A DNA stretch of 48,404 bases from a virus. Of this stretch, positions 45,575 to 48,404 are shown piece after piece. The stretch spans positions 1 through 48,404 of IMG/VR virus record IMGVR_UViG_3300036884_000051; one strand, given 5' to 3'. The position numbers and the translations under genes were made by a program. A model generated the notes under the pieces. That model ran no database searches. It saw nothing but the letters and a program-made list of their open reading frames with translations, and was not told the DNA's origin. The number at the start of each line of letters is the position of its first letter. Positions within the stretch are counted from its first letter, which is position 1.

Positions 45575-46318
45575 TTACAGAGCTTTTTTTATCTTCTTGA
45601 TAATGAATTGGACAAGGCCGCTTCGGACAATATCGTCCTCAGTGAAGCGGAAAACATGGATTCCATTCGCCCGACTCTCATCGTCGTCGAAGTGACCAAT
45701 CATTTTTATAAAGCCACTTCTGCCGTTGATGTCGCTTTGCTCTGGGTCGCCCAATATAAATACTTTCGAAAACTCCCCGGTGCGTGTAATAAGTGTGAAA
45801 AGTTCCTTGAAGGACATGTTCTGGGCTTCGTCGGCAATAATAGCCTTCGCATTCCAGTTCAAACCCCTCAAAAAGCCCACGGGGATGCCTGTGACACGCT
45901 CTTCCTTGAGCAGGATGTCAATGTCACCCTTCGGGAGCAGTTCGGTTAGCTTATCGAGTAATGGCTGAATGTATGGGGACATTTTCTCGTCAGCTTCGCC
46001 GGGGAGGAACCCAAGCTTGGCGTCGGAGCATTCTACTGCACTGCGGATATACACGAGGTCACTCACACGTTTCTCGTTAATCATGGTGAGAGCATGATAG
46101 ACTGCGAGGAACGTTTTGCTGGTGCCAGCAGGCCCAGAGACAAAAATGACTTTGGCAGTTTTGTCGGCAGCGAGGGCGAGGAATTGTTTTTGTTTGTCGG
46201 TCAGTTCCCTTTGATATATTTTCAGGACTGACTTGAGTTTTGAACGTTGAGGGATGATAGGGCTGGTGTCGGGGTTAACTATTGGTTGGTCCGTTGGAGT
46301 CAGGTTTTTCTTTTTCAT
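45575..46318 (-). CDS. phoH: PhoH-like P-loop ATPase
   Basis: A 247-aa protein. ELTDKQKQFLALA near residues 37-49 is the family lead-in, VSGPAGTSKTFLA near 56-68 the Walker A, and AIIADEAQNMS near 165 the Walker B with the PhoH-type EAQN; GDPEQSD near 196 completes the core. PhoH-like genes are common in myoviruses; their function is probably RNA- or stress-related and unsettled. Its start lies 44 nt inside the preceding gene and lacks a Shine-Dalgarno, so coupling is likely. Confidence 0.93.
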   Translation of the reverse strand: MKKKNLTPTDQPIVNPDTSPIIPQRSKLKSVLKIYQRELTDKQKQFLALAADKTAKVIFVSGPAGTSKTFLAVYHALTMINEKRVSDLVYIRSAVECSDAKLGFLPGEADEKMSPYIQPLLDKLTELLPKGDIDILLKEERVTGIPVGFLRGLNWNAKAIIADEAQNMSFKELFTLITRTGEFSKVFILGDPEQSDINGRSGFIKMIGHFDDDESRANGIHVFRFTEDDIVRSGLVQFIIKKIKKAL

Positions 46319-47599: not shown

Positions 47600-47628
47600 A
47601 GATTACCACATGTCGGAAAAGTTGTCAA
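47600..47628 (-). promoter_or_regulatory. Sigma70-type promoter of the three-gene early operon
   Basis: On the minus strand: a perfect TTGACA (47628-47623), a 17-nt spacer, and TGG-TAATCT (-10 at 47605-47600) with an extended TGn. Confidence 0.7.
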
Positions 47629-47646
47629 GGGGATTTTTTAAGAAAT

Positions 47647-47737
47647 TGGCGGAAGGCTGAGGTCACGCTCCCCACACCCGTCTTAGGGGTGCATACTGAT
47701 TTCGAGTCAGTTCCGAGTCTCACCCGGTTAACCTTCC
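47647..47737 (-). tRNA. tRNA-Ser (anticodon CGA), atypical T-loop
   Basis: A 91-nt class II tRNA. The acceptor stem GGAAGGT pairs with GCCTTCC, followed by G73 and an encoded CCA. The anticodon arm is ACTGA-CTCGAAA-TCAGT, giving CGA, which reads the serine codon UCG. A long variable arm (ACCC/GGGT stem) is present, as expected for Ser. Odd points: the T-loop is AGCGTGA in place of the TTCRANY consensus, closed by a 5-bp stem with one G-T pair, and the D-arm is only CCG/CGG. The HNH gene's stop codon falls at nucleotides 8-10 of this tRNA. Confidence 0.75.
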
Positions 47738-48246
47738 GTTTTAGTAATCTTGTATCCACGGAACTCTAGTACTTCTTTACATAACTGAACAAACTCTTCC
47801 ACCGACATATCATTTTTGGCAACATTTGCTTGCTTACACGCCAACCCCATATTATCCATACTGTTTGTTCCGCCTTTGCTTGAGGGAATAATATGGTCAC
47901 ATTGGTATGTTTTGGGCAGAGTCAAATCAATTTTCCGTCCCGTCAGATAGCAAATTGGATTGTCGGTAAGTTTTTGTAAAAAATCTTTCGACGAAAATAA
48001 CGACTCTGCTCTTTTTCTACCATAGTTGCCCTTACATTTCTTTTTTCCTATGGAGCAAAAGTTATCCTTTTTCCGTTTCAATATTCCAAGAAGAGTACTT
48101 CGATTAGAACGGTTTCGGCACAGAGTTTTTTCTTTTTGTCCCTCCCCACAGTGATATGAAATTGTACCTCGTGAGCATTTAAGTTCAGCCTGAATGGCAC
48201 GGTATGATTTTCCTTCATCTCGTAGTTGTATGATTTTATCCCTCAT
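47728..48246 (-). CDS. HNH endonuclease between two tRNA-Ser genes
   Basis: A 172-aa nuclease. The N-terminus (IIQLRDEGKSYRAIQAELKC...GTISYHC) is a helix-turn-helix. The HNH core follows: CYLTGRKIDL near residue 110, then CDHIIPSSKGGTNSMDNM near 128-145, with an asparagine-rich helix behind it. The fold is that of homing-type HNH enzymes. The ATG at 48246 lies 3 nt after a degenerate late element (GATATGTATT); a longer frame would run through the neighbouring tRNA. Its last three codons and stop overlap the 5' end of tRNA-Ser(CGA). Confidence 0.88.
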   Translation of the reverse strand: MRDKIIQLRDEGKSYRAIQAELKCSRGTISYHCGEGQKEKTLCRNRSNRSTLLGILKRKKDNFCSIGKKKCKGNYGRKRAESLFSSKDFLQKLTDNPICYLTGRKIDLTLPKTYQCDHIIPSSKGGTNSMDNMGLACKQANVAKNDMSVEEFVQLCKEVLEFRGYKITKTEG

Positions 48247-48262
48247 ACAAATACATATCAGT

Positions 48263-48297
48263 GGTTCGAACCAAAATAGAATAAATTTTTCGAACCA
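48263..48297. repeat. Two TTCGAA-centred repeats downstream of tRNA-Ser(GGA)
   Basis: GGTTCGAACC, a perfect 10-bp palindrome (48263-48272), and a second TTCGAACCAA copy (48289-48298) lie between the HNH start and the tRNA 3' end. GGTTCGAA is also the usual tRNA T-arm motif, which neighbouring tRNAs here lack. Confidence 0.4.
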
Positions 48298-48304
48298 ACA
48301 AATC

Positions 48305-48391
48305 TGGCGGAAGGTTGGTATCCCGCCTACCATCGTTTTCACGACCAACCGCTTTCCAAGCGGTGATGGAACCTCGTCCACTTAACCTTCC
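48305..48391 (-). tRNA. tRNA-Ser (anticodon GGA), atypical T-loop
   Basis: An 87-nt class II tRNA. The acceptor stem GGAAGGT pairs perfectly with ACCTTCC, then G73 and an encoded CCA. The anticodon arm is ACCGC-TTGGAAA-GCGGT with anticodon GGA, reading UCC and UCU. The variable arm is TCGT-GAAA-ACGA. The T-stem is a perfect 5 bp (TGGTA/TACCA), but the T-loop is GGCGGGA, without the TTC motif. Three or four unpaired bases, depending on how the D-stem is drawn, separate the acceptor stem and D-stem, more than the usual two. Confidence 0.78.
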
Positions 48392-48404
48392 AGTCTTGAC
48401 GTAG

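Follow-up and report, generated by a model that had tools for sequence, protein, structure and literature searches.

In cellular tRNAs, G18 of the D-loop pairs with U55 of the T-loop and G19 pairs with C56. G18-pseudouridine55 and G19-C56, contacts at the elbow where tRNA folds into an L, are regarded as invariant, and both gene finders and structural models take them for granted. Other pairings between the two loops can reportedly support translation, as in the suppressor tRNAs that the Steinberg laboratory is said to have selected from randomised D- and T-loops. Phage tRNA-Ser with an acceptor branch of 8 + 4 base pairs (8/4) were reportedly also described by Mukai et al. in 2017, and by that account this branch is already known in phages. 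Purine pairs at 54·58 are known in eukaryotes, where A54·A58 is present in the initiator tRNA and in insect and mammalian tRNA-Ala (PMC7566577). A review (PMC7609411) describes allo-tRNAs that are read by SerRS and work in E. coli translation. In the part of the open-access literature that was searched, neither natural A18-G55 tRNAs nor covariation between positions 19 and 56 turned up.

The window analysed here is the whole 48,404-nucleotide stretch of a viral record (IMGVR_UViG_3300036884_000051), which contains contractile-tail, primase, SbcC-like and PhoH genes. Two tRNA-Ser genes, tRNA-A and tRNA-B, are located close to its end (Table 1). Direct reading and RNAfold confirmed what a sequence-only reading had described, i.e., the ends of both genes, the class II folds, G73, the encoded CCA and the T-loops AGCGTGA and GGCGGGA in place of TTCRANY; both genes are on the minus strand. 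The gene for tRNA-A (47737 to 47647) reads GGAAGGTT AA CCGGGT-GAG-ACTCGG A ACTGA-CTCGAAA-TCAGT AT up to the variable arm and GGGG-AGCGTGA-CCTC AGCCTTCC G CCA after it. That for tRNA-B (48391 to 48305) reads GGAAGGTT AA GTGGA-CGAGGT-TCCAT C ACCGC-TTGGAAA-GCGGT TG, followed after the variable arm by GGTA-GGCGGGA-TACC AACCTTCC G CCA. Both fold as complete class II cloverleafs (-34.7 kcal/mol and z -1.8 for tRNA-A, -33.1 kcal/mol and z -2.3 for tRNA-B). Each has the G73, encoded CCA, serine anticodon and long variable arm of a canonical class II tRNA-Ser. Neither has the canonical T-loop (U54, U55, A58) or G18G19, and A18 is assigned in their D-loops, GAG and CGAGGT, from the G55 rule described below. 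C56 and G57 are found in both, with G19 present as the partner of C56. The D-arms had been called irregular; they do depart from the standard, in the form of long stems of 5-6 bp with short loops, and they are the key to the T-loop change.

Table 1. Coordinates of the tRNA-Ser genes, their parts and neighbouring genes in the window.
Feature	Position	Strand	Basis
tRNA-A, tRNA-Ser(CGA), whole gene including CCA	47647..47737	-	cloverleaf fold, scanner score 54, L007 ortholog and L144 isoacceptor
G73 and encoded CCA of tRNA-A	47647..47650	-	direct reading
T-loop of tRNA-A, AGCGTGA = A54 G55 C56 G57 U58 G59 A60	47663..47669	-	direct reading
Long variable arm of tRNA-A	47674..47692	-	fold
Anticodon CGA of tRNA-A, reads UCG	47702..47704	-	direct reading and fold
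D-arm of tRNA-A, CCGGGT-GAG-ACTCGG	47713..47727	-	fold
D-loop of tRNA-A, GAG; A and G taken as A18 G19	47719-47721	-	G55 rule
tRNA-B, tRNA-Ser(GGA), whole gene including CCA	48305..48391	-	cloverleaf fold, scanner score 54
T-loop of tRNA-B, GGCGGGA = G54 G55 C56 G57 G58 G59 A60	48321..48327	-	direct reading
Long variable arm of tRNA-B	48332..48345	-	fold
Anticodon GGA of tRNA-B, reads UCC/UCU	48355..48357	-	direct reading and fold
D-arm of tRNA-B, GTGGA-CGAGGT-TCCAT	48366..48381	-	fold
D-loop of tRNA-B, CGAGGT, containing A18 G19 G20	48371-48376	-	fold; G55 rule
HNH endonuclease gene between tRNA-A and tRNA-B	47728..48246	-	ORF; PHROG 6050 HNH endonuclease, E 4e-29
phoH-like gene, downstream of the tRNA genes	45575..46318	-	PHROG 170, E 8e-64

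The HNH endonuclease ORF extends from an ATG at 48246 to a stop at 47728, and at its 3' end it shares 10 nt with the start of tRNA-A. Its presence within the tRNA-Ser array can be compared with phage T6, where SegB (GIY-YIG) amplifies the tRNA locus (PMC13096335). The record ends 13 nt past tRNA-B, so the tRNA array may continue.

ARAGORN called no tRNAs in the window, and Rfam returned no tRNA at the gathering threshold in the window and none at E<=10 in positions 47600-48404. That both programs miss the two genes is what would be expected of pseudogenes or chance cloverleafs. Against this, a structural scanner that is blind to the T-loop sequence gave a score of 54 to each gene, a value that was not reached once in 5.9 Mb of reversed control sequence (top score 50, zero at >=54). 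The relatives argue in the same direction. They were fetched through the phoH-like gene, as 80 loci with their tRNA genes upstream of the PhoH match. In the second-closest relative by PhoH (L007), the ortholog of tRNA-A is a tRNA-Ser(CGA) whose T-loop reads GGCGGGA, and 10 of 91 positions differ between the two. Nine of these belong to five compensated pairs, the tenth being position 32: pairs 4-84, 5-83 and 67-77 are changed on both sides, a G·U becomes an A-U at 81, and T-loop positions 54 and 58 change jointly (A·U in tRNA-A, G·G in the ortholog). Similarly, a tRNA-Ser(TGA) of L144 is identical to tRNA-A except for position 34 in the anticodon and two compensated pairs of the anticodon stem. 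Such compensated differences indicate that the tRNA genes are under selection and are not decaying. The T-loop classes are also recurrent, as the GGCGGGA of tRNA-B is found again in tRNA-Ser of L007, L080, L107, L132, L142 and L144, and D-loops CGAGGT or GAG recur in other G55 tRNA-Ser. The comparison of T-loops in related phages, proposed in the sequence-only reading, thus leaves pseudogenes or chance cloverleafs as a hardly credible explanation.

The lack of the T-loop motif is best explained by a rewired elbow, in which the D-loop carries a matching change (U55 to G, G18 to A). A first sample consisted of 203 phage tRNAs with C56 and R57, taken from the PhoH loci and from four phage loci found by blastn. 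U55 is present in 186 of them, and 183 of those 186 have GG in the D-loop. The remaining 17 (8% of a sample not selected by T-loop) have G55, and any GG in their D-loops sits outside the place of G18G19 or within AGG. The set was then enlarged to 854 non-redundant phage tRNAs by adding four pattern scans of viral contigs, with the anticodon loop and T-loop fixed and the D-loop left free, and stretches of 14 contigs; since the scans favoured certain T-loops, this set gives no prevalence. AG occurs in the D-loop of all 291 G55 tRNAs, and GG in that of 498 of the 505 U55 tRNAs (497 with a slightly stricter window). GG is thus seen in 497/505 U55 against 61/291 G55 tRNAs (Fisher p 1.9e-129), and in each of these 61 the GG is part of AGG or an AG stands at another place in the loop. 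Among 7-nt D-loops, for which the positions are exact, A18G19 is found in 45/45 G55 tRNAs and G18G19 in 88/93 U55 tRNAs. The change can also be followed as a coupled step between relatives: the tRNA-Ala(GGC) of L007 combines AACGGCA with TTCGATT and its ortholog in L012 AACAGTA with TGCGATT, while tRNA-Ser(TGA) has CAGG or TAGG with TTCGATT in L071/L074 and TTAG with TGCGAGT in L061.

The proposed A18/G55 group is delimited by G55 together with A18-G19, R57 and a 54·58 pair that is U·A, G·G, A·U or C·A, and both tRNA-A and tRNA-B fit this description. Across the 291 G55 tRNAs, 54·58 is U·A in 114, G·G in 95, A·U in 55, C·A in 21 and of other types in 6. The earlier suggestion that the elbow is held together differently can now be specified: A18 is predicted to lie opposite G55, G19-C56 stays as it is, and the bases at 54 and 58 are exchanged together.

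The coupling extends to position 56. A rule was tested in which U or C at 55 goes with G18, G at 55 goes with A18, and base 19 is the complement of base 56. It is obeyed by 954 of 979 viral tRNAs (an average of 689 and at most 726 in 1000 shuffles) and by 217 of 223 at bacterial/archaeal loci. In matches with a base other than C at 56, base 19 is as a rule the Watson-Crick partner of that base (most of the exceptions resemble false positives within coding sequence), and all four 19-56 pair types and all eight dinucleotide combinations occur. For instance, the G55 T-loops TGGAA, TGAGA and TGTAA are found with AC, AT and AA, respectively, and the U55 T-loops TTAGA, TTGGA and TTTGA with GT, GC and GA. 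Several pair combinations can occur within one genome. The positions that covary (18 with 55, 19 with 56, 54 with 58) are precisely those of the elbow contacts. Replacement of C56 together with a Watson-Crick base 19 was observed at L171 2165-2254, L387 4131-4215 and 6243-6327, L392 7437-7511 and 7671-7745, L276 6352-6425 and others. A tRNA with the amber-reading anticodon CTA and the elbow G18A19/U55U56 (L276 9930-10003) is located on a phage contig of 186 kb, where nearly every other tRNA has G55.

A further feature, absent from the sequence-only reading, is the ability of position 8 to pair with 65 in both genes. Both minimum-energy folds contain an 8-bp acceptor stem and a 4-bp T-stem. As U8 and U49 can each pair with A65, 8/4 and 7/5 branches are indistinguishable in tRNA-A and tRNA-B themselves; the relatives suggest that their acceptor/T helix is probably of 8 + 4 bp. 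In G55 8/4 tRNA-Ser, all four Watson-Crick pairs are found at 8-65 (UA 25, GC 14, AU 12, CG 4). U55 relatives with ATC or GTC T-loops can pair at 8-65 in 18/19 cases and at 49-65 in 7/19, and ordinary tRNA-Ser with TTC have 49-65 paired in 91/97. Since G55 is found on 7/5 tRNAs too, the G55 elbow and the 8/4 branch are separate oddities. Unannotated 8/4 tRNA-Ser with U55, mostly with ATCGAGA-like T-loops, were observed in CcrRogue (L002 3009-3285), DSS3_MAL1 (L004 1977-2160, 2785-2871 and 3881-3968) and Xanthomonas phage X1 (L005 1952-2043 and 3650-3831), the deposited records of which contain no tRNA at these places. Two other tRNA types were considered for tRNA-A and tRNA-B and rejected. The serine anticodons and the 12-bp branch rule out tRNA-Sec, with its UCA anticodon and 13-bp branch, and the anticodons CGA and GGA rule out allo-tRNAs, which have serine identity and mostly non-serine anticodons.

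Phage G55 tRNAs span all 20 isotypes. On some contigs nearly the whole repertoire carries G55 (G55:U55 of 24:0 in L276, 17:0 in L218, 17:1 in L171 and 13:0 in L392), and the closely related phages L007 and L160 mix G55 and U55 tRNAs. Long class II-like variable regions were seen in tRNA-Trp, tRNA-Ile(TAT) and tRNA-Pro of G55-rich phages (L218 10502-10585 and 10904-10995; L392 7984-8076; L116 1442-1531). In the search for named isolates, mixed G55 tRNAs used as blastn queries against phage records matched nothing at E<=0.01, and no near match came up for the L276 cluster. A second query gave only cross-hits and an annotated tRNA-Lys of Streptomyces phage Heather (L631 2996-3069), with the T-loop TGCAAGT (G55) and a D-loop containing CAGG. 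This phage represents a cultured and tractable carrier of a G55 tRNA.

The elbow is also found in cells. GTDB genome contigs were scanned with a class I A18/G55 pattern, and 79/115 among the matches listed are well-paired tRNAs. The matches listed include Patescibacteria tRNA-Thr, tRNA-His and initiator-like tRNA-Met, Planctomycetota tRNA-Thr and DPANN tRNA-Phe. In six Patescibacteria drafts there is exactly one initiator-like pattern match each, always with G55, although the pattern also allowed U55; initiator-like tRNA-Met with A18/G55 was located in L446, L429, L469, L488, L501 and L509. Parvarchaeota/Nanoarchaeota assemblies carry A18/G55 tRNA-Phe (L407, L420, L431, L464, L477, L497). In Nostoc/Calothrix (L399, L448, L458, L461, L474, L476, L507), tRNAs with a near-identical body (mostly TACATACTAGCTCAATAGTAGAGC...) and different anticodons all have A18/G55 with TGCGATT. 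Verrucomicrobia assemblies among the matches listed contain clusters of about 10-22 G55 tRNAs within 8 kb (L402, L408, L441, L456, L465, L467, L475, L481, L487, L490, L502, L514), which could be prophages, mobile elements or mis-binned phage contigs. A simple link of G55 to the loss of TruB in cells was rejected, as TruB is present in 4/8 draft Patescibacteria carrying G55 tRNAs.

From these comparisons of sequences, tRNA-A and tRNA-B are very probably working serine tRNAs for phage translation, with an alternative A18·G55 elbow. Ordinary translation is the most likely use because they have serine anticodons and SerRS identity elements and the matching codons are in use (UCG 15.4 and UCC 14.3 per 1000 codons in the window genes). 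They would be expressed, charged and used by the ribosome, serving the phage's own translation during infection. A18 opposite G55 would stand in for G18-pseudouridine55, in a contact of predicted geometry, and the G19-C56 contact would be retained. The reverse-Hoogsteen U·A at 54·58 would become A·U in tRNA-A or G·G in tRNA-B, on a probable 8 + 4 bp acceptor/T helix and with a D-stem lengthened to 5-6 bp. Since neither gene has U54 or U55, m5U54 and pseudouridine55 are impossible in both tRNAs.

The sequence-only reading had also considered a non-ribosomal role, by analogy with staphylococcal tRNA-Gly. The loss of conserved D- and T-loop bases would fit such a role, for instance as amino-acid donors for cell-wall or other chemistry. 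However, every one of the 20 phage isotypes includes tRNAs with the same elbow, and so do the chromosomal tRNAs of Patescibacteria, initiator-like tRNA-Met among them, which indicates that it is compatible with translation. The retention of G19-C56 and the covariation of 18 with 55 argue that an elbow is kept. Nothing is missing from the anticodon loops and stems, and the serine codons that correspond to the anticodons are used. The comparison with tRNA-Gly itself is not supported, given the serine anticodons and class II structure of tRNA-A and tRNA-B. A non-ribosomal role is thus considered very improbable.

Why tRNAs that serve translation should change their elbow is a different question, concerning the same molecule. 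One answer would be a rewiring that keeps host or rival-phage enzymes reading G18-U55/G19-C56 (nucleases, modification enzymes, tRNA-depleting defences) from acting, while the tRNAs still translate. The sequence-only reading had likewise thought an interference-resistant role conceivable. Many enzymes bind the tRNA elbow (PMC4810234). Such an escape appeals in view of what is known of phage tRNAs, which evade anticodon nucleases by changes in the anticodon loop (PMC10264068) and rescue translation from defences that cut tRNAs (PMC11555353, PMC13096335). The contigs with almost only G55 tRNAs (L276, L218, L171), the different pair combinations within one genome and the HNH endonuclease between tRNA-A and tRNA-B would also fit. 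Nevertheless, no elbow-reading defence was identified, close relatives such as L007/L160 mix both kinds of tRNA, and evasion of their own enzymes is not an obvious driver for the chromosomal tRNAs of Patescibacteria and Planctomycetota. Escape is therefore regarded as possible but somewhat doubtful.

The occurrence of A18/G55 in chromosomal tRNAs makes tolerance or drift as good an account. Short-lived phages and small-genome bacteria may need only some stable elbow, and G18-U55 could have given way to A18-G55 by compensatory drift, without specific benefit. The scatter of alternative pairs over many phages, isotypes and reduced-genome bacteria is in agreement with this, and the presence of TruB in only half of the Patescibacteria drafts points to no strict tie to a modification enzyme. 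On the other hand, mismatched intermediates are very rare, and the switching of whole repertoires of 13-24 tRNAs (L276, L218, L392) is much to ask of drift. Compensatory drift is a reasonable possibility, though one on which we would not rely.

A broader proposal is put forward tentatively: the elbow, supposedly almost invariant, would have a natural code, in which the base at 18 depends on that at 55 (G with U, A with G), 19 is the Watson-Crick complement of 56, and 54 is matched to 58, and phages might exploit it across isotypes, in certain genomes for close to all of their tRNAs, so that host enzymes or defences reading the standard elbow no longer act, with most of these tRNAs being missed by standard gene finders. 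ARAGORN recovered 112/291 G55 genes and 461/505 U55 genes, and its recovery was only 3/95 for genes with GGC T-loops and 1/58 for G55 8/4 class II genes. Phage tRNA counts are consequently underestimates, and Rfam RF00005 is unusable for counting G55 genes because it misses them. Undercounted phage tRNAs affect studies of codon compensation and defence evasion. Coupled substitutions in hundreds of natural tRNAs reveal the elbow pairs that are tolerated, and they make these tRNAs a ready panel for testing the needs of RNase P, TruB/TrmA/TrmH, EF-Tu, the L1 stalk and tRNA-cutting defences.

Compared to canonical bacterial class II tRNA-Ser, tRNA-A and tRNA-B share the anticodons, G73, CCA, long variable arm and cloverleaf, but they lack TTCRANY and G18G19 and have a long D-stem with a short loop and a probable 8/4 branch. 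The 8/4 relatives in Caulobacter phages, DSS3_MAL1 and Xanthomonas phage X1 differ from them in keeping U55 with G18G19. The suppressor tRNAs attributed to the Steinberg laboratory are laboratory selections, whereas the A18/G55 tRNAs described here are natural genes. According to the review PMC7609411, allo-tRNAs resemble 8/4 tRNA-Ser in their 12-bp acceptor branch arranged as 8+4, long variable arm and serine identity elements, and differ in having mostly non-serine anticodons; its allo-tRNA section makes no mention of G55/A18 elbows. The phage tRNAs of PMC10264068 likewise diverge from host tRNAs at conserved positions, for which evasion of defences has been hypothesized, but there the changes affect the anticodon loop, the text making no mention of T-loop, D-loop or T-arm, whereas here they affect the D- and T-loops. 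Elbow bases are also altered in tRNA-Pyl and mitochondrial tRNAs, which, according to PMC7609411, lose G18G19 and TPsiC together with no replacement code, while here the two loops change in register. The A54·A58 tRNAs have in common with tRNA-A and tRNA-B a T-loop without U54, in which A60 and a purine·purine pair between 54 and 58 hold the loop (PMC7566577). They are described for 54/58, with 18 and 55 not reported as changed, while in the phage tRNAs an A·U or G·G pair at 54·58 is combined with A18-G55.
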